This document shows positions 2,381 through 24,146 of a stretch of 39,272 nucleotides of DNA, piece after piece (positions within the stretch are counted from its first letter, which is position 1; each line of letters opens with the position of its first letter). A program made the position numbers and the translations under genes. Source of the stretch: Bacillota bacterium (GTDB lineage Bacteria > Bacillota > Limnochordia > DTU087); assembly GCA_012735435.1 (NCBI GenBank), contig JAAYHH010000154.1:1-39272 (forward strand), given 5' to 3'. The notes below the pieces were generated by a model. The model saw nothing but the letters and a program-made list of their open reading frames with translations, was not told where the DNA came from and did no database searches.

Positions 2381-3973
2381 TTGGATAAGAACTTGTCACT
2401 ACTTAATGAGCAGCTGGGTATTGATGTTAGTTTTGACGTCATCTTGCGGGAGATCAGGGTCGGCAGCAAAGATGCAGCCCTTCTCTTTCTCGATGGCTTT
2501 GTCCACGACTTGGCAACACAACAAGTGATATCAAGCCTCATGGAAGTCAAGCCTCAGGAGCTTGCCCCCCAAGCTGTCCAACGGCTTCTGGAAGAACATA
2601 TTCCCCATTTTGAAACCTTTACCGTCAGTGACTTTGACGAACTTATCCACACTGTTCTATCTGGTCCCATGATTCTCTTGATTGATGGGGCAAGAGAGGC
2701 AATAGTAATCGATGTGCGGCAGTATCCCTCCCGCAGTATTGAGGAGCCGGAGCTTGAGCGGGTTACCAGAGGCTCCCGGGAGGGATTCTTGGAGACCGGC
2801 CTCTTTAATGCCAATCTCATCCGCCGACGCCTGCGGGATCCGGGACTGCGGTTCGAGGCCTTTCAGGTGGGCAAGCGCTCAGCCACAGATGTCTTTGTAG
2901 GCTACATCAAAGACATTGTAGACCCGGAGCTGCTCTCGGAGGTAAGACGGCGCCTTAATAGGATCAACGTATCGGCCTTGCCGCTAGGGAGCAAGAGTTT
3001 GGAAGAGTATCTGTTTGGAACAAAGCGCAATCCCTTTCCCGTGGTGCGGTATACAGAACGTCCCGATGTGGTGGCCGCCCATTTGCTGGAGGGTCATATA
3101 GTAATTATCACCGACACAACTCCCGCGGCCATGATCGTCCCGGTGACTGCTTGGCACTTCACTCAACATGCCGAGGATTACTTCAATAACCCTGTTGTCG
3201 GTACCTATATCCGTTGGCTGCGGTTTTTCGCCTTTCTCACAGCCTTTCTGCTGACACCTGTGTGGCTGGCCCTTGTTCAAAACCAAAGCGCGCTGCCGCC
3301 GATGCTGAGTTTCATCGGTCCCAAGGAGGAAGCTGCTGTTCCCCTATTTGTCCAGTTTGTGATCCTTGAGCTGGCCATCGACATGACGAGGATGGCCTTT
3401 ATCCATACACCATCAGCGGTAGCTTCTTCATTGGGTTTGATAGCTGCTATTCTGCTAGGTCAGTTTGCCGTGGATGTGGGGCTGTTTGTCCCTGAAACCA
3501 TTTTGTATCAGGCAGTGGCGGCCCTGGCCTTTTTCGCTATTCCCAATTATGAGTTTGGAATGGCTACCCGGTTATTCCGCCTTCTGGTCTTGATTTTGAC
3601 CGGCTTGTTCTCCTTTTGGGGGCTAGCGGCGGGAGTGTTGGTGACGGTACTGGTAATGGCTTTTACCAAATCCTTGGGGCTTCCCTATCTCTGGCCGCTG
3701 ATTCCTTGGCACTGGCCGAGCCTAAAGCGGCTGCTGTTTAGGTATCCCATTCCAACAGTCTCCAAGCGGCCTCCCTTCACCCGTCCTGTTGACGCCGATA
3801 TCAAGGCAACTGAAGAGCAGCAAACAGGAAGTTCCGGCTCCGAGGAAGGCTCTGGATCCAAGGAGAACTCGCCTCAGCCTAGTGAAGGGAAGCGAGCACC
3901 AAAGCGGCCCAGGAAGGTCGGCAGGCGCACCGATGGGTCAACTGACCAAAGAGAGAACGGAGAGGACAGCTGA
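2381..3973 (+). CDS. spoVAF: Spore germination protein, GerA family, SpoVAF-like
   Basis: GerA-family N-terminal domain (FDVILREIRVGSKDAALLFLDGFVHD, GPMILLIDGAREAIVIDVRQYPSRSIEEPE, RGSREGFLET), multiple TM segments, hydrophilic C-terminal tail. The nearby downstream lysA echoes the B. subtilis spoVAF-lysA order. TTG start. Confidence 0.82.
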   Translation: MDKNLSLLNEQLGIDVSFDVILREIRVGSKDAALLFLDGFVHDLATQQVISSLMEVKPQELAPQAVQRLLEEHIPHFETFTVSDFDELIHTVLSGPMILLIDGAREAIVIDVRQYPSRSIEEPELERVTRGSREGFLETGLFNANLIRRRLRDPGLRFEAFQVGKRSATDVFVGYIKDIVDPELLSEVRRRLNRINVSALPLGSKSLEEYLFGTKRNPFPVVRYTERPDVVAAHLLEGHIVIITDTTPAAMIVPVTAWHFTQHAEDYFNNPVVGTYIRWLRFFAFLTAFLLTPVWLALVQNQSALPPMLSFIGPKEEAAVPLFVQFVILELAIDMTRMAFIHTPSAVASSLGLIAAILLGQFAVDVGLFVPETILYQAVAALAFFAIPNYEFGMATRLFRLLVLILTGLFSFWGLAAGVLVTVLVMAFTKSLGLPYLWPLIPWHWPSLKRLLFRYPIPTVSKRPPFTRPVDADIKATEEQQTGSSGSEEGSGSKENSPQPSEGKRAPKRPRKVGRRTDGSTDQRENGEDS

Positions 3974-4956
3974 TGGGCATTACAGTTGGTATCCCAAGGG
4001 CTCTTGCTTACCATGATTATTTCCCACTCTGGAAAGTGTTCTTATCTAGTCTAGGAGCCGAATTGGTGGTATCACCGCCTACCAACCAGGCCATTGTCAA
4101 TGATGGCGTCCGCTTGGCGGTGGACGGCACCTGTTTGCCGGTGAAGATTTTCTACGGCCATGTCAGTTGGCTGAGTAAGGCCGGCGTAGACAGCATCTTC
4201 CTGCCCCGGCTAATCAGCGTAGCGCCAAAGGAATACATATGTCCCAAATTCATGGGATTGCCGGATATGATGGCTGCTGCCTTTCCCAATGGGCTGCGGT
4301 TTATTAGTCCAGTGATTAATCTGACCCATTCCTCCAGGTTGTTCTACCAGGAACTGGAAAAGGTGGGAAAGTGGCTGGGATGCACAGCCCCGGATACCCG
4401 GAGGGCTTGGGATAAGGCACTTGCTGCCCAGGAGAGTTACCAATCTTTCTTACAGGGTGGAAACTGGCCGGCTGAATACGAGACTCAACAGGATAAAGAA
4501 GCAGAGTTGACCGTCAGCAGGCCCCTGGATACTCCTAGCCTCCGTATCGGACTTCTGGGCCACAGCTATGTTGTCTATGACAAACTTGCCAGCATGGACG
4601 CTGTAAACCGCTTGCAGGGCATGGGAGTTGAGGTATTAACTGTGGACATGCTGCCTCCTGCCAGGATAGAAGCACAGGCTGCCCGCTGGCCAAAACGGAT
4701 GTTTTGGACCTCCGGGCGGCGGATTCTCGGCGCCGCCTGGGAGTATACAGAGATGTCTGTTGACGGCATCATCTACATAACTGCCTTTGGGTGCGGTACA
4801 GATTCCCTAACTGCTGAGCTGGTAGAGCGCACTGTCCGCCGCCGGTCCCATATTCCCCAGCTGATTCTCAACATTGATGAACATACCGGCGAAGCCGGTG
4901 TCGTCACCCGCTTAGAAGCTTTTGTGGACATGCTCAGGTGGAGGCGAGGGCGATGA
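3973..4956 (+). CDS. Acyl-CoA dehydratase activase-related protein (DUF2229-like), paralog A
   Basis: GIPRALAYHDYFPLWKVFLSSLGAELVVSP, DGTCLPVKIFYGHV, KEYICPKFMGLPD and IDEHTGEAGVVTRLEAFVDML. Start overlaps the upstream stop (TGATG at 3971-3975). Confidence 0.85.
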   Translation: MGITVGIPRALAYHDYFPLWKVFLSSLGAELVVSPPTNQAIVNDGVRLAVDGTCLPVKIFYGHVSWLSKAGVDSIFLPRLISVAPKEYICPKFMGLPDMMAAAFPNGLRFISPVINLTHSSRLFYQELEKVGKWLGCTAPDTRRAWDKALAAQESYQSFLQGGNWPAEYETQQDKEAELTVSRPLDTPSLRIGLLGHSYVVYDKLASMDAVNRLQGMGVEVLTVDMLPPARIEAQAARWPKRMFWTSGRRILGAAWEYTEMSVDGIIYITAFGCGTDSLTAELVERTVRRRSHIPQLILNIDEHTGEAGVVTRLEAFVDMLRWRRGR

Positions 4957-6089
4957 AAGTTACCTTCCCCCATATGGGGACCGCATACATTCCCTTTCGG
5001 GCATTAATTGAAGGCTTGGGTCATGAGGTCATCGTGGCACCTGCCTGTACCCAAAGGACCTTAAGTTTAGGAACCCGCTATGCACCGGAATCGGCCTGTC
5101 TGCCCCTCAAGATCAATATTGGCAACTACCTGGAAGCAGCGGAACTGGGCGCGGAAGCCATCGTCATGGCCGGAGGTATCGGACCCTGCCGGTTCGGATT
5201 TTATGCTTACGTCCAGCAGGAGATTTTGCGGGATATAGGCTGTGACATGGAGATGATCATTTTAGAACCCCCTGCCAGCGGGTGGCGGCCGCTCCTTGCC
5301 AGGCTCAAGTACTTGACCCAGGGTGTGAGTGCAGCCCAGATCACCCGCACCTTGCGGCTTACCTGGGCAAAACTGGTTGCCTGCGACCGCCTTGAACAGC
5401 TGAGTCTAACTGTAAGGGCCTATGAGATAAGGAAGGGCAGTACCACCAAGGCCTTGCAGCAGGCGTATCGAGAGGTGGATAGGGCAGACAGTGTAGATAT
5501 GGTCAGAAGAGCCCTAGAAGAAGGCATCGCCAATCTCCAGTCGGTGCCGCAGGACCGGCAGCGCTCTGTTCTAGCCATCGGTGTAGTAGGAGAAATCTAC
5601 ACCATTTTAGAACCCTTCGTAAATTTCCGTCTCGAGGAGCAGCTGGGGGAAATGGGTGTTGTGGTCCGGCGGAAAATCTGGTTAAGCGACTGGATTTTCC
5701 ATCATCTGGTGCTGTCGGCCTTCCGGAAACAGAGGGAGGCTCAGCTGGTTAGCTTGGCAAGACCGTACCTTCAGCATTTTGTCGGCGGGCATGGGCTGGA
5801 GTCAGTTGCCCACACGGTTCAATTGGCCCGTGGGGGCGTTGACGGCATCGTCCACATACTGCCCTTTACCTGCATGCCGGAAATCGTGGCCCAAAGTATA
5901 CTGCCCTCGGTGGGTGAGGACTATCAGCTGCCGATTCTCACCGTGGTGGTCGATGAACACACCGGTATTGCCGGCATTCGCACTAGGCTGGAGGCCTTTG
6001 TGGATCTATTGGCAAGCAGCCGGGCGAAGGCCGGATCCCGATCAGAGAAGGGGAGACTTCTTACCCCGGCGGCAAGCCGCAGCAGCTGA
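4953..6089 (+). CDS. 2-hydroxyacyl-CoA dehydratase/activase-related protein (DUF2229/HgdB-like), paralog B
   Basis: MKVTFPHMGTAYIPFRALIEGLGHEVIVAP, ESACLPLKINIGNYLEAAELGAEAIVMAGGIGPCRFGFY and VDEHTGIAGIRTRLEAFVDLL. ATGA overlap with the previous gene (4953-4956). Confidence 0.83.
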   Translation: MKVTFPHMGTAYIPFRALIEGLGHEVIVAPACTQRTLSLGTRYAPESACLPLKINIGNYLEAAELGAEAIVMAGGIGPCRFGFYAYVQQEILRDIGCDMEMIILEPPASGWRPLLARLKYLTQGVSAAQITRTLRLTWAKLVACDRLEQLSLTVRAYEIRKGSTTKALQQAYREVDRADSVDMVRRALEEGIANLQSVPQDRQRSVLAIGVVGEIYTILEPFVNFRLEEQLGEMGVVVRRKIWLSDWIFHHLVLSAFRKQREAQLVSLARPYLQHFVGGHGLESVAHTVQLARGGVDGIVHILPFTCMPEIVAQSILPSVGEDYQLPILTVVVDEHTGIAGIRTRLEAFVDLLASSRAKAGSRSEKGRLLTPAASRSS

Positions 6090-6130
6090 GGGGATAAGCT
6101 GGGAGAAATACTCAGAAGAGAGGTTAAGCT

Positions 6131-7165
6131 TTGACGAATATGAGAGCATCTTACGGCAAGCACGATGTTTATCTGGGGATTGACGTGGGATCTGTCAGCA
6201 CCAATTTAGTGGTGATGAGCGGTGCAGGGGAGGTGTATCACAAGGAATATCTCCGTACCCAGGGAAGGCCCATACCGGCGGTGCAGGCAGGGCTGGCCCG
6301 GGTCTACCAAAAGCTGCCGGACATCCAGATAAAGGGAGTGGGCACCACCGGCAGCGGCCGCCGCTTAGCCGCGGCCATTGCCGGCGCGGATATTGTCAAA
6401 AACGAGATCACCGCCCACGCGGCGGCAGCCACCCACTTCCACCCCGATGTCCAAACTGTCATTGAGATTGGGGGACAGGATTCTAAGATTATCATCTTGC
6501 GGGAAGGTGTAGTTACAGATTTTGCCATGAACACTGTCTGTGCAGCCGGCACCGGTTCGTTCTTGGATCAGCAGGCTGCTAGGCTTGGGATTCCCATCGC
6601 CGAGTTTGGCGAAATTGCCCTTCAGGCAAAGAATCCCGTGCGGATTGCAGGCCGCTGTACCGTCTTTGCCGAATCGGACATGATCCACAAACAGCAAATG
6701 GGCCACAGTGTTCCGGATATTCTAGCCGGTTTATGTGCAGCCATGGTGCGGAACTACTTGAACAATGTGGGAAAGGGCAAGGAAATCCGCCCGACGGTGC
6801 TTTTCCAGGGAGGGGTCGCAGCCAATCGGGGTATGTGCAAAGCCCTGGAAGATGAGCTGGGATATCCCATAATCGTACCGCGGGCCTTTGATGTGATGGG
6901 AGCTGTGGGAGCAGCCTTGCTAGCCAGAAGGCACATAGAAGAAAGCGGTCAAGAAACTAACTTCCGGGGATTTGCCGTAAGTCAAGCCCGCTACAGTGCC
7001 GGCAGCTTTGAATGCTCCCATTGTGCCAACCGCTGCGAAATTGTCAATATTTCCATGAATGGCAAGCTCGTCGCCCGCTGGGGATCCCGCTGCGGACGCT
7101 GGGAACAGGATGAGATTGCGTACCATAGTCCGATTGACCACCTTCAGGAGCTATGTTATCATTAG
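6131..7165 (+). CDS. Acyl-CoA dehydratase activase (BadF/BadG/BcrA/BcrD ATPase family) with C-terminal Cys motif
   Basis: YLGIDVGSVSTNLVVM, GTTGSGRRLAAA, VIEIGGQDSKII and MNTVCAAGTGSFLDQQAARLGI are ASKHA/BadF signatures. The C-terminus has CSHCANRC...SRCGRW. The start may be the ATG at 6140. Confidence 0.92.
   Translation: MTNMRASYGKHDVYLGIDVGSVSTNLVVMSGAGEVYHKEYLRTQGRPIPAVQAGLARVYQKLPDIQIKGVGTTGSGRRLAAAIAGADIVKNEITAHAAAATHFHPDVQTVIEIGGQDSKIIILREGVVTDFAMNTVCAAGTGSFLDQQAARLGIPIAEFGEIALQAKNPVRIAGRCTVFAESDMIHKQQMGHSVPDILAGLCAAMVRNYLNNVGKGKEIRPTVLFQGGVAANRGMCKALEDELGYPIIVPRAFDVMGAVGAALLARRHIEESGQETNFRGFAVSQARYSAGSFECSHCANRCEIVNISMNGKLVARWGSRCGRWEQDEIAYHSPIDHLQELCYH
7134..7162 (+). promoter_or_regulatory. 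Candidate sigma-A type promoter for lysA
   Basis: TTGACC (7134-7139), 17 nt spacer, TATCAT (7157-7162), inside the 3' end of the activase gene. Confidence 0.5.
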
Positions 7166-7208
7166 ACGTAAATTGTTCTTGCAGTTGGGAGAACGAGGGG
7201 GCCAGAGG

Positions 7209-8573
7209 ATGAGACTGCGGGGGACCATGAGCATTGACCAAAGGGGTCATTTGCTCATCGGTGGTTGTGACACGGTGGAACTAGCCCACCAGTACGGGAC
7301 ACCGCTTTATGTAATAGATGAAGCCGCATTGCGCCAGAAAGCCAGGGAATACCGCCGGGCTTTCGGTCATTATATACCTGGTAGTGAAGTAATTTACGCA
7401 GGCAAAGCACTGCTTACTTCTGCAATCTGCAGGATCATAGATGAAGAGCAGCTCTCCTTAGATGTGGTATCTGGCGGGGAACTCTATACTGCATTAGTTG
7501 CCGACTTTCCACCTGAGCGGATCTACTTCCATGGAAATAATAAATCTCCTTCCGAATTGGCCATGGCTGTTACCCATAGGATAGGCCGGATCGTAGTTGA
7601 TAATCTCCATGAACTTAAGCTGCTCCAGGAGATTGCTGCTGCTCTGGGCGCTGAGGTCAAGATCCTCATGCGGATCACGCCCGGTATCGAGACCAATACC
7701 CATGCCTATATCCAAACGGGCCAATTCGATTCCAAGTTTGGTTTCCCCCTGGGTACTGAGGAAACCATGGCTGCCATAGAATGCGCGGCGCGGCGCATGC
7801 CCAATATCCGCCTTATGGGCCTGCACTGCCATATAGGTTCTCAAGTCATGGATCTTCGGTCCTTCGGGCTTGCCGCAGAGTACATGGTGGGGTTTATGGC
7901 GAAAATCCGGGATGAATTGGGGTTGGAGCTGGAAGAACTGGATTTAGGCGGTGGACTGGGAATTCGGTACCGTGGGGATGATGAGCCGCCGGAACCTGAA
8001 GAGTATGCCCGGATCATCAGCCAAACTGTCACCTCTGCCTGCAGTGAACTAAACCTGCCGATACCGAAGATTATGGTCGAACCAGGCCGGTCCATCGTAG
8101 GGGAAGCCGGTACGACTCTCTATACCGTGGGGGCTGTGAAGGATATTCCCAATGTGAGGCGGTATGTGGCCGTTGACGGGGGGATGACGGACAATCCCCG
8201 GGTAACTTTGTATCAGGCGGTTTACGAAGCGTGTCTAGCCAATAAGGCAGCAGAAGAGCCCAGGGATTTGGTCACCGTTGCCGGCAAGTGCTGTGAATCC
8301 GGTGATGTGCTGATCAAGGACATCATGCTGCCTCCTGTTGAGCCGGGAGATATCTTAGCGGTTTTTTCCACCGGTGCATACAACTATTCAATGGCCAGCA
8401 ATTACAATCATCTGCCCAGACCGGCCATGGTTACAGTTTACCAGGGCATGAGTGAGGTCATTGTTGAGCGGGAGACATACGCAGATCTGATCCGGTTGGA
8501 TCGCATACCGCCGAGGCTCGCGGCTTCCCGGAAAACTGCAGCGGAAATCACGAAATCGGCAGCAGCTAAATGA
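7209..8573 (+). CDS. lysA: Diaminopimelate decarboxylase
   Basis: PLYVIDEAALRQKAREYRRAF, VIYAGKALLTSAICRI, LDVVSGGELYTAL, GLHCHIGSQ, ELDLGGGLGIRY, VEPGRSIVGEAG and CCESGDVL. ATG at 7209; the track ORF at 7059 is an upstream extension. Confidence 0.96.
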   Translation: MRLRGTMSIDQRGHLLIGGCDTVELAHQYGTPLYVIDEAALRQKAREYRRAFGHYIPGSEVIYAGKALLTSAICRIIDEEQLSLDVVSGGELYTALVADFPPERIYFHGNNKSPSELAMAVTHRIGRIVVDNLHELKLLQEIAAALGAEVKILMRITPGIETNTHAYIQTGQFDSKFGFPLGTEETMAAIECAARRMPNIRLMGLHCHIGSQVMDLRSFGLAAEYMVGFMAKIRDELGLELEELDLGGGLGIRYRGDDEPPEPEEYARIISQTVTSACSELNLPIPKIMVEPGRSIVGEAGTTLYTVGAVKDIPNVRRYVAVDGGMTDNPRVTLYQAVYEACLANKAAEEPRDLVTVAGKCCESGDVLIKDIMLPPVEPGDILAVFSTGAYNYSMASNYNHLPRPAMVTVYQGMSEVIVERETYADLIRLDRIPPRLAASRKTAAEITKSAAAK

Positions 8574-13062: not shown

Positions 13063-13091
13063 TTGACACTTAAAGAGCAGTATAGTATACT
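13063..13091 (+). promoter_or_regulatory. Sigma-A type promoter upstream of rluB
   Basis: TTGACA (13063-13068), 17 nt spacer, TATACT (13086-13091): full -35 match and 5/6 -10 match. Confidence 0.75.
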
Positions 13092-15219: not shown

Positions 15220-15254
15220 ATCTCTAAATCTATCGGCAGATGGAGGTCAGATAA

Positions 15255-16751
15255 ATGCTGTCATTGCCTATGACTCGGGGAATCCGGGGCGCAATAACTG
15301 TAGACGAAAACACGGAAGCTGCCATTACCGGTGCAGCCTGGCGTCTTACCCAGGCGATGATGAGTGCCAACCAGGTTGAGGTTGGGGAAATTGCCTGCAT
15401 TATTTTCTCCGTCACCCCAGATTTGGATGCTGCCTTCCCCGCAACTGGGGTCAGGCTGGCAGGTCTAACAACAACTCCGCTGTTTTCTACCAGGGAGATT
15501 CCGGTTCCCGGCAGCCTCCCCCGCTGCATCAGAGCTTTAATGCTGGTTTCAACTAACCTCAAGCAAGATGAGATACGGCATATATACCTGGGAGAAGCAG
15601 CCAAGCTGCGGCCGGACCTAGATGGCGGACAAGCTGATGAGGCTGATAGACCAGGGGATGGGATGCCAAGTTATCGAAAAACCATTCTGGATATTGCTCC
15701 ATACCAGCCGGGCAAGCCCATCAGCGAACTGAGGCGGGAGAAGGGCCTGACTGATATCATCAAACTGGCTTCCAATGAAAACCCCCTGGGACCGTCCCCG
15801 AAGGCTGTAGCGGCGGTGCAGCAGTCCTTGACTTCATTACATATTTATCCAGACGGTAACTGCTTTGAGCTGCGGGAATCGCTGGCCAAGAGGTTGGGCG
15901 TTGAGGATATGGAGCTGATCTTCGGCAATGGTTCCGATGAAGTGATCAAGATGCTGGGCCTGACTTTCTTGGAACCGGGAGATGAGGTCTTGGTCTGTGA
16001 GCCCACCTTTAGTGAATATGCCTATGCCGCCAACTTAATGGGGGCAAAGCTTAGAACTCTGCCCCTCAAAGACCATGCCTTCGATCTAGAAGGGATGCTG
16101 GCGGCGATTAATCCTAAGACTAAAATGGTGTTTATTTGCAATCCCAACAATCCTACCGGCGCCTATGTAAAACAAGGGGCAGTAGACGATTTTCTGACTA
16201 AGATTCCGGAGCATGTCCTCGTGGTCTTTGATGAAGCCTATTATGAATATGTGACAGCCGCTGACTATCCGGACACCATCAGCTATGTAAAAGAAGGACG
16301 CAACGTCGTGGTTCTTAGAACTTTTTCCAAGATCTACGGGTTGGCTGGCCTCAGAATCGGCTATGGTGTGGCTCCTGGACATATAGCCCAGCTGGTTCAC
16401 CGGGTTAGAGAACCCTTTAATGTCAATGCGGCAGCTCAAGTCGCTGCTCTAGCTGCCCTGGAGGATGAGGAGCATGTCGCTAGGAGCCGTGAGCTGAATG
16501 AAGCCGGCAAGGCTTGGTTGTATCAGGAGCTGGCCAAGCTAGAGCTGGATTATGTCCCAAGCCAAACGAACTTTATCTTTATCGATCTTAAGCAGGACAG
16601 TCAGATTGTTTACCAGCGCCTCTTGGACCGGGGGGTTATTGCCCGCAGCGGAGGTGTGTTTGGATGTCCTACTTGGCTTAGGGTGACTATTGGTACTGAA
16701 GAGGAAAACCAGAGGTTCATAGAGGCCTTGGCAGAAGTCGTGGGAAGATAA
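15255..16751 (+). CDS. AroH-type chorismate mutase fused to HisC-type (class I/II) aminotransferase
   Basis: About residues 1-120 resemble B. subtilis AroH (TRGIRGAITVDENTEAAI, SVTPDLDAAFPATGVR, LPRCIRALMLVSTNLKQDEIRHIYLGEAAKLRPDL). From about residue 137: MPSYRKTILDIAPYQPGKPISELRRE, KLASNENPLGPSP, CNPNNPTGAYV, FDEAYYEY, RTFSKIYGLAGLRIGYG. One uninterrupted frame. Confidence 0.9.
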   Translation: MLSLPMTRGIRGAITVDENTEAAITGAAWRLTQAMMSANQVEVGEIACIIFSVTPDLDAAFPATGVRLAGLTTTPLFSTREIPVPGSLPRCIRALMLVSTNLKQDEIRHIYLGEAAKLRPDLDGGQADEADRPGDGMPSYRKTILDIAPYQPGKPISELRREKGLTDIIKLASNENPLGPSPKAVAAVQQSLTSLHIYPDGNCFELRESLAKRLGVEDMELIFGNGSDEVIKMLGLTFLEPGDEVLVCEPTFSEYAYAANLMGAKLRTLPLKDHAFDLEGMLAAINPKTKMVFICNPNNPTGAYVKQGAVDDFLTKIPEHVLVVFDEAYYEYVTAADYPDTISYVKEGRNVVVLRTFSKIYGLAGLRIGYGVAPGHIAQLVHRVREPFNVNAAAQVAALAALEDEEHVARSRELNEAGKAWLYQELAKLELDYVPSQTNFIFIDLKQDSQIVYQRLLDRGVIARSGGVFGCPTWLRVTIGTEEENQRFIEALAEVVGR

Positions 16752-16791: not shown

Positions 16792-17823
16792 ATGATTATA
16801 GTCATGGAACGGAACGCATCTCCCAAGCTGGTGGATTCAGTAACCGCTAGGCTTGAACAACTGGGGTTCAAGGTTCACCTTTCTGTGGGTGTTGAGCGAA
16901 CCATTATTGGAGTCATCGGGGAAAAGCGGCCTGAGTACATGGAACAGCTGGCTGCCATGGCAGGAGTTGAAAGTATTGTCCCCATCCTCCGTCCCTTTAA
17001 GCTGGCCAGCCGAGAATTTCATCCCGAACCCACAAAGGTGCAGGTTGGGAATGTAACCATCGGCGGTGAGGAGATAGTTGTCATGGCTGGTCCCTGTGCC
17101 GTGGAGAGCGAGGAACAGATCTTGACCATCGCTAGAAAGATTAAGGCGGCCGGTGCCCAAATTTTGCGAGGAGGCGCCTTTAAGCCCCGCACATCCCCCT
17201 ATTCCTTCCAAGGGTTAGAAGAAGAGGGTCTTAAGCTCCTAGCCCTGGCCAGGGAGGAGACAGGACTGCCGGTTGTTACGGAGGTCGTTAATCCCCGGGA
17301 CATTGAACTGGTGGAAAAGTATGCAGATATGCTGCAGGTCGGTGCCCGCAACATGCAAAATTTTACCCTTTTGCGGGAGATAGGGCAGTCAAAGAAGCCT
17401 GTTCTCCTCAAGCGGGGTCTAGCTGCCACTGTTGAAGAATGGCTCATGGCTGCAGAATACATAATATCCGGCGGCAACAGCAATGTAGTCCTGTGTGAGC
17501 GGGGGATTAGAACATATGAAACAGGTACCCGCAATACTCTGGACCTAAGTGCTGTCCCGGCGGTCAAGCATTACAGCCACTTGCCCATTATCGCCGATCC
17601 CAGCCACGGAACCGGCCGGTGGCGGTATGTTAAGCCAATGGCTAAAGCTGCCATTGCCGCCGGTGCCGATGGACTGATGATAGAAGTACATTGTCGGCCG
17701 GAGGAAGCTCTCTCCGATGGTGCTCAATCCCTGACACCGGACAATTTCCGGCAGCTGATGGCGGAAATCAAGGCGGTGGCAGAGGCCGTAGGCCGGAAAA
17801 GCACTGAACCAGTGGTGGTCTGA
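16792..17823 (+). CDS. aroF: 3-deoxy-7-phosphoheptulonate synthase (DAHP synthase with N-terminal ferredoxin-like domain)
   Basis: [91 protein letters not shown]. Confidence 0.95.
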
Positions 17824-17826
17824 GTC

Positions 17827-18927
17827 ATGGAAAGACAAACAATAGCAGTCATTGGGCTGGGATTGATCGGGGGCTCTTTGGCATTTCGCTTGAGGAACAA
17901 AGGGTACCGGGTCATCGGGTATGACGTATCGGAGGAACGGACACAGACGGCCTTTCACCTGGGAGCCATCAGCGAAGGCCGGAGCAGCGCGGCAGAAGCG
18001 GTAAAAGAATGCGATGTTGTTTTTATCGCAGCACCGGTGGGAGCCATTGTCCCCATAGTTGAGGAGATCATGCCCCACACCCGGCCAGAGGCAATTGTCA
18101 CCGATGTGGGCAGTGTAAAGCGTCCCATCATGGAAAAAGTTGAGCTTCTCAAGCCTTCCTTTACCTTCATCGGAGGCCATCCCATGGCCGGCTCTGAGCA
18201 AGGGGGCATCGAGGCAGCGGATGCCAACCTATTTGAAAACGCTGTCTATGTTCTGACCCCCATCAGTGAAGATGCTGCTCGGGAAGAGTCCCTTAAACAG
18301 CTGGCAGAACTGATTGAATCTGACCTGGGAGCTACCGTGATGTTAATGGAGCCCAAGGTTCATGATGAAGTGGTGGCAGCTGTCAGCCACCTGCCCCATA
18401 TTGTTGCTGCGGCTTTGGTCCATGCCTTGGGCAGAACCGCTGAGAAAACTCCAGCGGCTCTAGCCCTGGCTGCCGGCGGGTTTAGGGATACTACTAGAAT
18501 AGCATCGGGCTTGCCGGATCTTTGGGCAGATATATGCCTTCACAACCGGGCACCGGTGCTCCGTACCATTGCTTTCATACAGGATGCCCTGGAGGAGGTC
18601 CAGGAGGCACTGCTGACCCAGGATGCCGATGGGCTGGAGGAATTTTTTGCCTTTGCCAGAGCTCTGCGGGCTGAAGTTCCGGCAGCCCAGAGGGGCCTGC
18701 TCCCGCCGCTGTTTGATGTCATGGTCCCGGTTCCCGACATGCCGGGAGCCATCAGTGCAGTCACCAGCCTGCTGGCCAGCGCAGAGTTGAATGTAAAGGA
18801 TATCAGCATAGTCCGGCAGCGGGAAGGAGAGGTAGGGGCACTGCGGATCGGGCTGGCCGATGGTCCATCCCGTGACCGGGCCCTGGAGATCCTGCAGGTA
18901 GGGGGATATAAGGCCTATCGGCGCTAG
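17827..18927 (+). CDS. tyrA: Prephenate dehydrogenase with C-terminal ACT domain
   Basis: IAVIGLGLIGGSLAFRLRNKGYRVIGYD, TDVGSVKRPI, GGHPMAGSEQGGIEAA, SHLPHIVAAALV; C-terminal VPDMPGAISAVTSLLASAELNVKDISIVRQREGEVGALRIG. Confidence 0.95.
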   Translation: MERQTIAVIGLGLIGGSLAFRLRNKGYRVIGYDVSEERTQTAFHLGAISEGRSSAAEAVKECDVVFIAAPVGAIVPIVEEIMPHTRPEAIVTDVGSVKRPIMEKVELLKPSFTFIGGHPMAGSEQGGIEAADANLFENAVYVLTPISEDAAREESLKQLAELIESDLGATVMLMEPKVHDEVVAAVSHLPHIVAAALVHALGRTAEKTPAALALAAGGFRDTTRIASGLPDLWADICLHNRAPVLRTIAFIQDALEEVQEALLTQDADGLEEFFAFARALRAEVPAAQRGLLPPLFDVMVPVPDMPGAISAVTSLLASAELNVKDISIVRQREGEVGALRIGLADGPSRDRALEILQVGGYKAYRR

Positions 18928-18941
18928 ATGTCGTTTACCGT

Positions 18942-20300
18942 TTGCTTAGGAAAGCGGGGAAGAAACAGTTGATCTTGGAAGTAAAGCCAAGTCGAGGGCT
19001 TAAGGGTAGAGTGAGGGTTCCCGGCGACAAATCTATTTCCCACAGGGCGGCTTTATTGGGAGCCATGGGCCAAGGGGTAACCAGGATAGAAGGATTCTTG
19101 GAAAGCGAGGACTGCCTCGCAACTTTGCACTGCTTGTCACTTCTGGGAACCCCAATTAAGCGCCTTGGTCCCGGCAGCTATGAGATCCACGGACAGGGCT
19201 GGGATGGGTTTCAGGAACCTAATGATGTGCTGAACTGCGGTAATTCCGGGACCACCATGCGGCTCCTAATGGGAGTTCTTGCCGGTCAGCCCATTTTTTC
19301 TGTGTTGACCGGTGATGCATCTTTGCGCACCCGTCCCATGGGACGGGTGATTGAGCCTCTCCGGAGCATGGGGGCCAAGATCTTCGGTCGAGCAGGGGAC
19401 ACCAGGGCTCCCCTGGTAATTCTGGGCAGCGGAAACCTTGAAGGCAAGACCCACCTCCTGCCGGTGGCCAGTGCCCAAGTCAAGAGTGCTTTGCTCCTTG
19501 CGGGGTTGAGGGCTAAGGGGATTACAGTGGTTACCGAGCCGGGCCCTTCCCGCAACCATACAGAAGTGATGTTGCAGCAGATGGGGGTGCCGGTGAGGGT
19601 CGATGGATTGACAATAGCGGTAGAGGGCGGCACTCTGCCTAGAGGAGGGCAGGTCATTGTCCCAGGAGATATTTCTTCAGCAGCTTACTTGATGGTAGCT
19701 GCTGCTGTTTTGCCCGATTCGGATATCACAATCGAGAATGTGGGCATAAACTCAACTAGGGCAGGCATCATCAAAGTCCTGCAGTCCATGGGGGCTGATC
19801 TGCAAATAGAGCCGCTGCCCGGCGGCGGTGAGCCTAAAGCCAATATCAGGATTCGGACTTCCCATTTGCGGGCCACTGAAATTGGCGGCTCCATTGTACC
19901 CACCCTCATAGATGAACTGCCGGTTCTCGCTGTAGCCGCCGCTTTTGCCCAGGGAACCACCCTTGTTAGAGATGCCGCTGAACTCCGGGTCAAAGAGTGT
20001 GACCGCATAGCTGCCGTTACCCAGGAGCTGGGGCGGTTGGGAGTTGACATTGAGGAGAGAGCCGACGGCTGGGTGATACAGGGAGGTGGAAGTCTCACAG
20101 GGGGAAGGGTAAGCGGCCGGGGAGATCACCGGATTGTAATGGCACTGACGGTGCTGGGTTTAGGGATGAAATCACCGGTTGAAATTAAGGATGCTGAGGC
20201 CATATCAATCTCTTTTCCTGAATTTGTAACCACCTTGAAGGAACTGGGGGCAGAGATAGAGGAAAGAGCTGCCAACCCCCAGGATAGACAGGCTATATGA
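18942..20300 (+). CDS. aroA: 3-phosphoshikimate 1-carboxyvinyltransferase (EPSP synthase)
   Basis: VPGDKSISHRAALLGAM, LNCGNSGTTMRLLMGVLAG, GDASLRTRPM, AQVKSALLLAGL, ELRVKECDRIAAV, GDHRIVMAL. The true start may be the TTG near 18969. Confidence 0.96.
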   Translation: MLRKAGKKQLILEVKPSRGLKGRVRVPGDKSISHRAALLGAMGQGVTRIEGFLESEDCLATLHCLSLLGTPIKRLGPGSYEIHGQGWDGFQEPNDVLNCGNSGTTMRLLMGVLAGQPIFSVLTGDASLRTRPMGRVIEPLRSMGAKIFGRAGDTRAPLVILGSGNLEGKTHLLPVASAQVKSALLLAGLRAKGITVVTEPGPSRNHTEVMLQQMGVPVRVDGLTIAVEGGTLPRGGQVIVPGDISSAAYLMVAAAVLPDSDITIENVGINSTRAGIIKVLQSMGADLQIEPLPGGGEPKANIRIRTSHLRATEIGGSIVPTLIDELPVLAVAAAFAQGTTLVRDAAELRVKECDRIAAVTQELGRLGVDIEERADGWVIQGGGSLTGGRVSGRGDHRIVMALTVLGLGMKSPVEIKDAEAISISFPEFVTTLKELGAEIEERAANPQDRQAI

Positions 20301-20409
20301 TGAAAGGGAATTCTTTCGCAGGACTGCAGGTTGTTCTTGGCGAATAGTACATGGGATTATCTTTGTTTGATAGAACATGCTCCTGATGGGAAGGGGATAT
20401 CTTCAGCCA

Positions 20410-21102
20410 ATGAAATGCAATATCGCCATTGATGGTCCGGCAGGGGCAGGCAAGAGTACAGTAGCAAGGATCCTGGCAGAGCGGCTTGGGTATCTGCATG
20501 TAGATACCGGGGCATTGTACAGAGCACTGACCCTGCTGGTCTTGCGCAAAGGAATAGATCCGACAGACGAATCAGCCATAGCCCAGCTCTTTGATGATGC
20601 TGAGATCGATATGGTTTCAGAGCCGGGCGGGGTGAAAGTCTTGCTAAATGGAGAAGATGTGACCGAAGCCATCAGGGATCCGAAGGTCAGCGAAATCGTG
20701 TCGGTTGTGGCCCAGCACTCCAAGGTGAGGGAGCATTTACTGCACCTGCAGCGTCAGCTGGCCGCCGGCGGTGGAGTAGTGATGGATGGAAGAGACATTG
20801 GTACAGTGGTTCTCCCCGATGCCCAGCTGAAGATATTCTTGACTGCCAGCGCCGAGGAACGGGCCCGAAGGCGGATGAAGGAATTACGCAATCAGGGGCA
20901 TAAAGTTACATACAAGGATATTCTCCTTTCTATTCGGGCCAGGGATAACTTAGATGCAGAAAGACCAGTTGCACCGCTGAGGGCGGCGACTGATGCCATC
21001 CCGTTGGATACTACTGGCAAGGATCTAGATACCGTGGTAGAAGAGATACTAGGATATCTTTCTGAAGTTGGAAGGTGCGATGGGTGCTCTACGGATTTGT
21101 AA
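20410..21102 (+). CDS. cmk: Cytidylate kinase
   Basis: IAIDGPAGAGKSTVARILAERLGYLHVDTGALYRALTLL, MDGRDIGTVVLPDAQLKIFLTASAEERARRR. ATG at 20410 preferred over the track start at 20377. Confidence 0.96.
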   Translation: MKCNIAIDGPAGAGKSTVARILAERLGYLHVDTGALYRALTLLVLRKGIDPTDESAIAQLFDDAEIDMVSEPGGVKVLLNGEDVTEAIRDPKVSEIVSVVAQHSKVREHLLHLQRQLAAGGGVVMDGRDIGTVVLPDAQLKIFLTASAEERARRRMKELRNQGHKVTYKDILLSIRARDNLDAERPVAPLRAATDAIPLDTTGKDLDTVVEEILGYLSEVGRCDGCSTDL

Positions 21103-21728: not shown

Positions 21729-21926
21729 AGACAGCTTTCGGCCTTTGGATAAATTCTGGATTTTGCCGTTAGTCGGGTCATTATACAGGGATTTTCATGA
21801 CTTTCTAGGCAAAGAGTGACTCCATAGGGAGGGTTTGGCCCGGCGATAAAGAACAAATAGACCTAAGGGCAAGTGTTTTTTGTTGCCGTCGGTGGCCAAT
21901 ACTACTGGCAGGAGGGAAAAGATGGC

Positions 21927-24146
21927 TTGATTGTTGAGTTAGCGGATAATGCAGGGTTCTGTTTTGGGGTAAAGCGTGCCATCGAGACGGCTATCAAGAC
22001 AGCGGAGGAGAACAAAGGTGTTTCCATCCACACGTTAGGCCCTTTGATCCACAGCCCCCAGACTGTAGCCCGCTTATCTGGACTGGGCATCCAGGTAGCT
22101 GATAAGATAGAAGACATTGACAGCGGCGTGGTCATTATCCGAAGTCATGGTGTGCCCCCCCAGACCATAGAACGTGCCCGAGGAAAAGGCTTACAAGTAG
22201 TGAACGCTACTTGCCCCTTTGTAGTACGAGCTATGACCTGGGCAGCCCAGCTTAGGGAAGATGGCTATCAGGTAGTGATCGTTGGTGACCGGGAACACCC
22301 TGAGGTAATTGCCATCCTAGGGGCAACTGACAACACCGGGATTGTCGTTGGGACCCCGGAAGAGGCTGCTGCACTTCCCACCTGTGAAGCCTATGGGGTA
22401 GTGGCCCAGACAACGCAATCCTTGTCTAATTTCCGGGCTTGTATAGCTGAGTTGGTGGGGAAAGCCCGGGAAGTGAAGTTTTATGACACAATTTGTACTG
22501 CAACCGCCCGTAGACAGCAGGCAGCAAGGGAGTTAGCATCTCGAGTTGATGTCATGCTGGTAGTGGGGGGACGCAATAGCGCCAATACCACTAGATTGGC
22601 GCAGATTTGCCAGGAAAGCGGAGCACGCACTTACCATATCGAAACGGCTGATGAAATTGAACCAAGCTGGTTCCGCCCGGGAGATAAGGTAGGTGTCACC
22701 GCAGGCGCTTCAACGCCTAACTGGCTCATTGAGGAGGTAGTGCAACGGATGACAGAGTTTGACGGAATGCAGGAACAGGAAGTAAAAAATGCCCAGGCGG
22801 CAACGGTGACCGAGGAGGCTGTGGAGGCTAATCCCGAGGTTGAGGCCGATGCAGCTCAGGATGCTGTTCAGGATGCTGCTCAGGAGCAGCCGGTGGAAAC
22901 AGCAGCTGAGGACAATCCGGTTGAACCTGAGGGAGAAGCCGATGCTGATGCCGCAGAGGAGTTTGATGCTCCTACCATGGCCCAGTACGACGAGACCTTC
23001 ATTACTCCCAGTCAGGGGGACATCGTGCGAGGCAAAGTCGTCCAAGTCAGCAGCGATGAGGTGCTTGTACATGTCGGCGGGAAATCTGAGGGGCGGATTC
23101 CCAGACATGAGCTAGGTCTTAAGGGAGACCAGGAGCCGGCAGACATACTGGCTGTGGGCGATGAAATAGATGTCTATGTCGTGCGAACCGATGACAGCGA
23201 AGGCAGTGTTGTATTGTCAAAGCGGCGGGCGGATCAAGCCAAGGCTTGGAAAGAGCTGGAGGAGATCTATGAGAAGGGCGAGATCCTCGAAGCTACCGTA
23301 ACCGAGCGGGTCAAAGGCGGTTTGCTGGTGGATGTCGGGGTGCGGGGATTTGTACCTGCTTCCCATGTGGCCCGCAATTATGTTGAGGACTTGGAGTCCT
23401 ATGTGGGCAAGTCCCTCCGGATGAAGATTATTGAACTGGATAGGCAGCGGAACAATGTGGTTCTCTCCCACAGGGAAGTACTGGAAGAGGAATACCAGAA
23501 GCAGAAGGAAATCATCTTTGATACGTATCAGCCCGGAGACATTGTTGATGGAGTCGTGCGGCGCTTGACCGACTTTGGAGCTTTTGTTGACATCGGCAGC
23601 GGAGTAGAGGGTTTGCTCCATGTTTCCGAAATGGCATACAGCCGAGTCAATCATCCCTCAGATGTTCTCTCTGAGAATCAGGAAATTAAGGTGATGATTC
23701 TGAACTTGGATAAGGAGACGGAGCGCATTTCCCTTGGTCTCAAACAGACTCTGCCTGATCCATGGGATAATATCAGCAGCAAGTATCATGAAGGAGATAT
23801 TGTCGAGGGTGAGGTTACCCGTACCGTCGATTTCGGAGCCTTCGTAAAGCTAGAGGATGGAGTCGAAGGACTTGTTCACATTTCCCAGCTGGCTGACCAC
23901 CACGTAGCTAACACAGAGGATGTAGTGACCGCTGGTCAGCAGGTAAAGGTTAAGATCATCAGTATCGACGAAGAGGCTCGCCGGATAGGTTTGAGCATCA
24001 AAGAAGCTCAGAAGGATGCTAAACCTAAGCCTGAACCTGTACAGGAACCTCAGCCGCAAGAAGAGCCGGAGAGTTCCGGAATCACTATTGGCGAATTAGT
24101 CGGTGATCTGGGCGCACTTTTAAAGGGTAGTGATGATGAGGAGTAG
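21927..24146 (+). CDS. ispH-rpsA: Bifunctional 4-hydroxy-3-methylbut-2-enyl diphosphate reductase / 30S ribosomal protein S1 fusion
   Basis: N-terminus ELADNAGFCFGVKRAIETA, IIRSHGVPPQTIERA, NATCPFVVRA, GVTAGASTPNWLIEEV (IspH); acidic linker; then four S1 repeats (GDIVRGKVVQV..., GEILEATVTERV..., GDIVDGVVRRLTDFGAFVDIG..., GDIVEGEVTRTVDFGAFVKLE...). TTG at 21927 follows AGGAGGG; the track start is 21873. Confidence 0.94.
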   Translation: MIVELADNAGFCFGVKRAIETAIKTAEENKGVSIHTLGPLIHSPQTVARLSGLGIQVADKIEDIDSGVVIIRSHGVPPQTIERARGKGLQVVNATCPFVVRAMTWAAQLREDGYQVVIVGDREHPEVIAILGATDNTGIVVGTPEEAAALPTCEAYGVVAQTTQSLSNFRACIAELVGKAREVKFYDTICTATARRQQAARELASRVDVMLVVGGRNSANTTRLAQICQESGARTYHIETADEIEPSWFRPGDKVGVTAGASTPNWLIEEVVQRMTEFDGMQEQEVKNAQAATVTEEAVEANPEVEADAAQDAVQDAAQEQPVETAAEDNPVEPEGEADADAAEEFDAPTMAQYDETFITPSQGDIVRGKVVQVSSDEVLVHVGGKSEGRIPRHELGLKGDQEPADILAVGDEIDVYVVRTDDSEGSVVLSKRRADQAKAWKELEEIYEKGEILEATVTERVKGGLLVDVGVRGFVPASHVARNYVEDLESYVGKSLRMKIIELDRQRNNVVLSHREVLEEEYQKQKEIIFDTYQPGDIVDGVVRRLTDFGAFVDIGSGVEGLLHVSEMAYSRVNHPSDVLSENQEIKVMILNLDKETERISLGLKQTLPDPWDNISSKYHEGDIVEGEVTRTVDFGAFVKLEDGVEGLVHISQLADHHVANTEDVVTAGQQVKVKIISIDEEARRIGLSIKEAQKDAKPKPEPVQEPQPQEEPESSGITIGELVGDLGALLKGSDDEE

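Follow-up and report, generated by a model that had tools for sequence, protein, structure and literature searches.

A reading frame that joins an AroH-type chorismate mutase to a HisC-type aminotransferase raises two questions: whether it encodes a real protein, and which pathways such a protein would serve. The frame lies in a stretch of 39,272 nucleotides from an uncultured Bacillota bacterium (here the window), which is the whole of one contig from a genome assembly that is broken into 203 contigs, totals 1.75 Mb and is 82.7% complete. The answer reached below is that AroH-HisC is a genuine, conserved and recurrent combination of two well-known enzymes, and apparently an undescribed one; no description of such a fusion was found in the openly licensed literature searched. 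The surprise for a specialist is moderate, as the parts and the neighbourhood are classical and the joining is new; the tie to histidine synthesis is what the first-pass annotation had left undecided.

Architecture of the fused protein

The gene consists of a single uninterrupted frame of 498 codons, running from ATG to stop with no internal stop (Table 1). A GGAGGT similar to the one 5' of its start is also found 5' of the fusion start in relatives. The N-terminal domain matches Pfam CM_1 (E 1.7e-39, 135.2 bits against a cut-off of 27) and NCBIfam TIGR01796 (112.6 bits against a cut-off of 82), and AroH structures match it by sequence. In an alignment of 23 fused proteins it displays R11, R67, E81, R93, Y111 and R119, which we take to be the positions of Arg7, Arg63, Glu78, Arg90, Tyr108 and Arg116 in Bacillus subtilis AroH. 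The equivalents of the catalytic residues Arg7, Glu78, Arg90, Tyr108 and Arg116 are all present. The C-terminal domain covers the full length of TIGR01141 (profile 1-349/349) at 379.9 bits, against an equivalog cut-off of 276.55, and matches Aminotran_1_2 over residues 166-492 (Pfam, E 6.3e-71). It contains the PLP-lysine motif RTFSKIYGLAGLRIGYG, with the lysine at K359 (16329-16331), as well as D326, Y329, N299, R367, the substrate arginines R464 and R476 and the N-terminal lid tyrosine Y150, all judged by invariance in alignments. The structure predicted for the fused protein has two confident domains (mean pLDDT 91.1), and its best solved fold by Foldseek is 3ffh, the HisC of Listeria. The first-pass annotation's description of a single-frame fusion of AroH-type mutase and HisC-type aminotransferase, complete with its PLP-lysine motif, is thus borne out, both models scoring above curated cut-offs. 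With catalytic residues intact, the protein would be competent in both domains.

Table 1. Positions of the fused gene, its parts and the genes downstream within the window
Feature	Position	Strand	Evidence
GGAGGT, ribosome-binding-site-like, 7 bases 5' of the ATG at 15255	15242..15247	+	sequence
Fused aroH-hisC gene	15255..16751	+	open frame; same frame in at least 22 other genomes
AroH (chorismate mutase type I) domain, residues 8-122	15276..15620	+	PF07736, TIGR01796; conservation in 23 fused proteins
Linker, residues 123-140 (18 residues between domain models)	15621..15674	+	model; codon comparison
In-frame ATG in linker	15663..15665	+	codon alignment; the codon is ATT or GTT in three of the four relatives within the genus
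HisC aminotransferase domain, residues 141-495	15675..16739	+	TIGR01141; residue invariance; Foldseek
DAHP synthase, aroF-type, FXD domain	16792..17823	+	PRK08673 526.6 bits, PF18152
TyrA prephenate dehydrogenase, ACT-like C-terminus	17827..18927	+	PF02153, PF20463; best solved relative 5uyy
AroA (EPSP synthase)	18942..20300	+	TIGR01356 437.8 bits
Cytidylate kinase (cmk), end of conserved gene order	20377..21102	+	PF02224; order in relatives

The linker between the domains had been put at about 17 residues; the linker stands and the count is one higher. It is disordered in the predicted structure (pLDDT <50 at residues 123-135), and linkers across the fused proteins are variable, at about 19-49 residues. 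In a codon comparison within the genus, linker dN is 0.34-0.82 as against 0.04-0.14 in the domains (dS 0.5-2.6), with the frame kept, and both domains are under strong purifying selection. Separate translation of HisC from the ATG in the linker was rejected as a conserved feature, and several fused linkers are without any ATG, GTG or TTG. Because the linker changes fast yet stays in frame, and because the internal ATG is not conserved, the sequence evidence argues that the fusion is made as one polypeptide.

Distribution and origin

The source assembly resembles a metagenome-assembled genome in its fragmentation, so that an error of assembly or sequencing might be suspected. However, the same frame is open throughout the source family, in other families of the class and in the more distant family f23, including one single-contig genome of 3.8 Mb (G066). 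These other genomes refute the artefact reading, to which we give practically no credence. The fusion is full-length in all 11 genomes of the source family, which span six genera, with the ten relatives at 67-89% identity, and this is far beyond chance. Absence from close relatives, which the first-pass annotation had named as evidence against the fusion, is therefore not what is seen. The wider taxonomic mapping that it proposed yielded at least ten fused genomes in four other families of the class (four in f16, three in f13, two in f15 and one of three in f3) and at least two outside the class, in f23. The total is at least 23 genomes among the matches listed, from a sample of 399 genomes of the phylum, many of them incomplete; the counts outside the source family likewise refer to the matches listed.

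Most other members of the class with aroH carry a separate hisC within about a hundred bases 3' of it, or overlapping it, and in several lineages the two are in-frame neighbours split by one stop. As many relatives keep the genes adjacent but separate, the fusion arose when neighbouring genes were joined in frame; the two, already adjacent and probably co-transcribed, would have become one once the aroH stop was lost. An ancestral Gram-positive order of aroG-aroB-aroH-hisHb-tyrA-aroF is given by Song et al. 2005 (PMC1173090). On the tree of HisC domains, six switches between the fused and the separate state are required. Constraining all fused rows to group as one is rejected (p = 2e-8), and with it a single origin of all fusions, while the same constraint on the fused rows of the class is not (p 0.086); the genes were therefore joined independently at least twice, and possibly more often. 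In the independent fusion of f23 (L164 1980-3428, L165 3267-4721) the AroH residue aligned with the catalytic Glu78 of the B. subtilis enzyme seems to be Gln. Because of this apparent replacement, the mutase activity of that fusion is in doubt.

Gene neighbourhood and pathway roles

The genes directly downstream are those that had been named as aroF, tyrA and aroA, and profile matches confirm a DAHP synthase, a TyrA with ACT-like domain and an AroA. The proposal that the fusion heads an aromatic operon holds for the aromatic genes but not overall. Upstream on the same strand are rluB and a flavoprotein gene (TIGR00275), with gaps of 9 and 55 bp, and the best promoter-like match is 5' of rluB (13063-13091) and not 5' of the fusion. 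A search for RNA elements gave no Rfam match within the window. Across the class the conserved order is rluB-(flavoprotein)-aroH-hisC-DAHP synthase-tyrA-(aroA)-cmk.

No AroQ-type mutase (CM_2, PF01817) was found in any of the 11 family genomes, which leaves the AroH domain of the fusion as the sole chorismate mutase found, and probably the only one of known type in the cell. PheA, about which the first-pass annotation had asked, is encoded in all 11, away from the fusion locus. The TyrA is closest to the prephenate dehydrogenase of Bacillus anthracis; the published specificity rule for TyrA residue 222 (PMC5681985) is not safely transferable to the type found here.

The his operon of the source genome and its relatives reads hisZ-hisG-hisD-hisB-hisA-hisF-hisIE, with hisB directly after hisD. 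The separate hisC that was to be looked for is absent from this operon, both in the source genome and in all the fused genomes examined, which come from five families (including f13, f15, f16 (partial) and f23). In a control genome (G386) hisC sits between hisD and hisB. HisD is present in 11/11 family genomes, whose fused copies all reach 357-381 bits against TIGR01141. The fused copy is the only match above the cut-off in G008, which is 98% complete, and likewise in G000. The remaining nine genomes have a second HisC-like gene above the cut-off (313-334 bits; L114 5236-6360 and equivalents), which is without the lid tyrosine. This gene was rejected as a his-operon hisC, as it lies next to genes for a glycerol-dehydrogenase-like protein and a taurine/Sao-like ABC transporter and not next to his genes. 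A further genome of the same order, G011, retains hisC at the locus (L173, rluB-flavoprotein-hisC-cmk), where aroH, tyrA, aroA and the DAHP synthase gene are absent; its his operon also has no hisC. This organism is possibly an aromatic auxotroph. The his operons without hisC, the single copy in G008 and the retention of hisC in G011 indicate that the HisC domain is very likely also the histidinol-phosphate aminotransferase of histidine synthesis. A specificity call from the Mycobacterium tuberculosis tetrad (PMC4703992) was dropped: F252 and F388 do not vary among the fused, unfused and second-copy proteins, so the tetrad does not separate aromatic from histidinol-phosphate enzymes here. In two of the his operons (L155 2867-7135 and L156 10268-14539) there is no hisH between hisB and hisA, within the operon only.

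Competing explanations and known fusions

The gene shows the linkage of the Bacillus-type dual-function HisC (HisHb), being linked to aroH, tyrA and aroA and missing from the his operon. We consider it likely that the fusion is a bifunctional polypeptide of AroH and such a dual-purpose HisC, serving histidine and, by extension, phenylalanine and tyrosine synthesis. The AroH domain would convert chorismate to prephenate, from which TyrA and PheA would form 4-hydroxyphenylpyruvate and phenylpyruvate. The PLP-dependent HisC domain would carry out the histidinol-phosphate step, for which the his operon has no gene, and would probably also transaminate the two aromatic keto acids, by analogy with B. 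subtilis HisC. The enzymes of B. subtilis and Thermotoga maritima are reported to be bifunctional HisP and aromatic aminotransferases (PMC9309667). Of the earlier suggestion that the aminotransferase acts on aromatic keto acids instead of, or in addition to, its histidine substrate, the second form is thus probable, and the first is made unlikely by the his operons without hisC. The benefit of joining would likely be fixed stoichiometry and co-regulation and not channelling, since another enzyme acts between the two domains unless prephenate itself is transaminated. Against this dual-role reading, the second HisC-like gene could perform the histidine step in the nine genomes that have it, and other fold-I aminotransferases in each genome could make phenylalanine and tyrosine.

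It is also possible, though we hold this only tentatively, that the joining brings nothing, the domains remaining independent after a neutral read-through that occurs where overlapping genes share a frame. Unfused relatives with aroH and hisC overlapping or within tens of bases, in-frame neighbours split by one stop and the disordered, variable linker all agree with such an origin. However, the fusion has been kept in every genome of a six-genus family and gained at least twice. This explanation is compatible with the dual-role reading and differs from it only in benefit. Aromatic and histidine synthesis might also be physically coupled in a particle, evolved at least twice, whose domains communicate through ligands or transaminate prephenate directly. 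AroH is usually a trimer and HisC a dimer, and a chain containing both is therefore predicted to form a hexameric or larger particle, an assembly open to test; the coupled particle as a whole we think unlikely.

The fused HisC may instead be a specialised phenylalanine and tyrosine aminotransferase, with histidine made by another enzyme. The aromatic neighbourhood and the second HisC-like gene would fit this, but neither G008 nor G000 has another TIGR01141 match above the cut-off, G011 keeps hisC at a locus without aromatic genes, and the lid tyrosine is kept in the fused protein and missing in the second copy; the specialisation is decidedly unlikely. More improbable still is that AroH hands its prephenate straight to the HisC domain, giving arogenate and then tyrosine, perhaps also phenylalanine, through a channel. 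Fusion to the mutase beside aroF and tyrA, its recurrence and a TyrA substrate not settled from sequence speak for it. HisC-family enzymes are not known to be among the prephenate aminotransferases (Graindorge 2014, Dornfeld 2014), which counts against it, as do the affinity of TyrA to the B. anthracis enzyme and a his operon whose lack of hisC accounts for the domain without prephenate. The mutase-transaminase channel of the first-pass annotation is a weak idea because, where TyrA and PheA use prephenate, the mutase reaction does not lead straight into the final transamination; the linker is moreover disordered and fast-evolving, and it is common for relatives to have the two genes apart. Even in fusions of mutase and CDT (CM-CDT), whose steps are consecutive, no channelling and no catalytic benefit from tethering were seen (PMC10520331).

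Those exported proteins are likewise rare natural mutase fusions, but they are of the AroQ-gamma type and known from nine species. The better-known AroQ fusions (the PheA P-protein, the TyrA T-protein and AroQ-DAHP synthase) also combine chorismate mutase with another enzyme of aromatic synthesis. Here, as first claimed, the mutase in the aromatic cluster is instead AroH, of unrelated fold, its partner is an aminotransferase, and the steps are not consecutive. The aro(-trp) supraoperon of B. subtilis and Listeria has the same aroH and hisC (hisHb) families in the order aroH-hisC-tyrA-aroA(EPSPS) (PMC1173090), but as two genes, whereas here they form one polypeptide with the DAHP synthase gene directly after it. 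In the hisHb-tyrA fusion of Rhodobacter sphaeroides, too, an aminotransferase of the HisC family is joined with an adjacent aromatic gene from its own linkage group; the partner there is TyrA and not a mutase, and the survey that describes the fusion has it as one recent case (PMC1173090). AroH-HisC adds an AroH-based, repeatedly arisen fusion to a field in which nearly all descriptions concern AroQ fusions. With two amino-acid pathways on one polypeptide, loss of the gene should cost phenylalanine, tyrosine and histidine together, and automatic naming as just 'histidinol-phosphate transaminase' or just 'chorismate mutase' would create a false pathway gap.

Three other arrangements were observed. 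At two loci of family f14 (L105 and L113) hisC is missing from the same cluster and the DAHP synthase gene is directly 3' of aroH. The cluster in the window contains a second fusion of neighbouring genes (21873-24146), with IspH (LytB; LYTB 317.5 bits) and ribosomal protein S1-type domains (four S1 stretches) in one 757-aa frame; IspH-S1 fusions are known in Clostridia. Ahead of a decarboxylase-like gene (7059-8573), positions 3973-7165 encode two DUF2229 proteins related to CoA-enzyme activases, together with an ATPase of the BcrAD/BadFG type.
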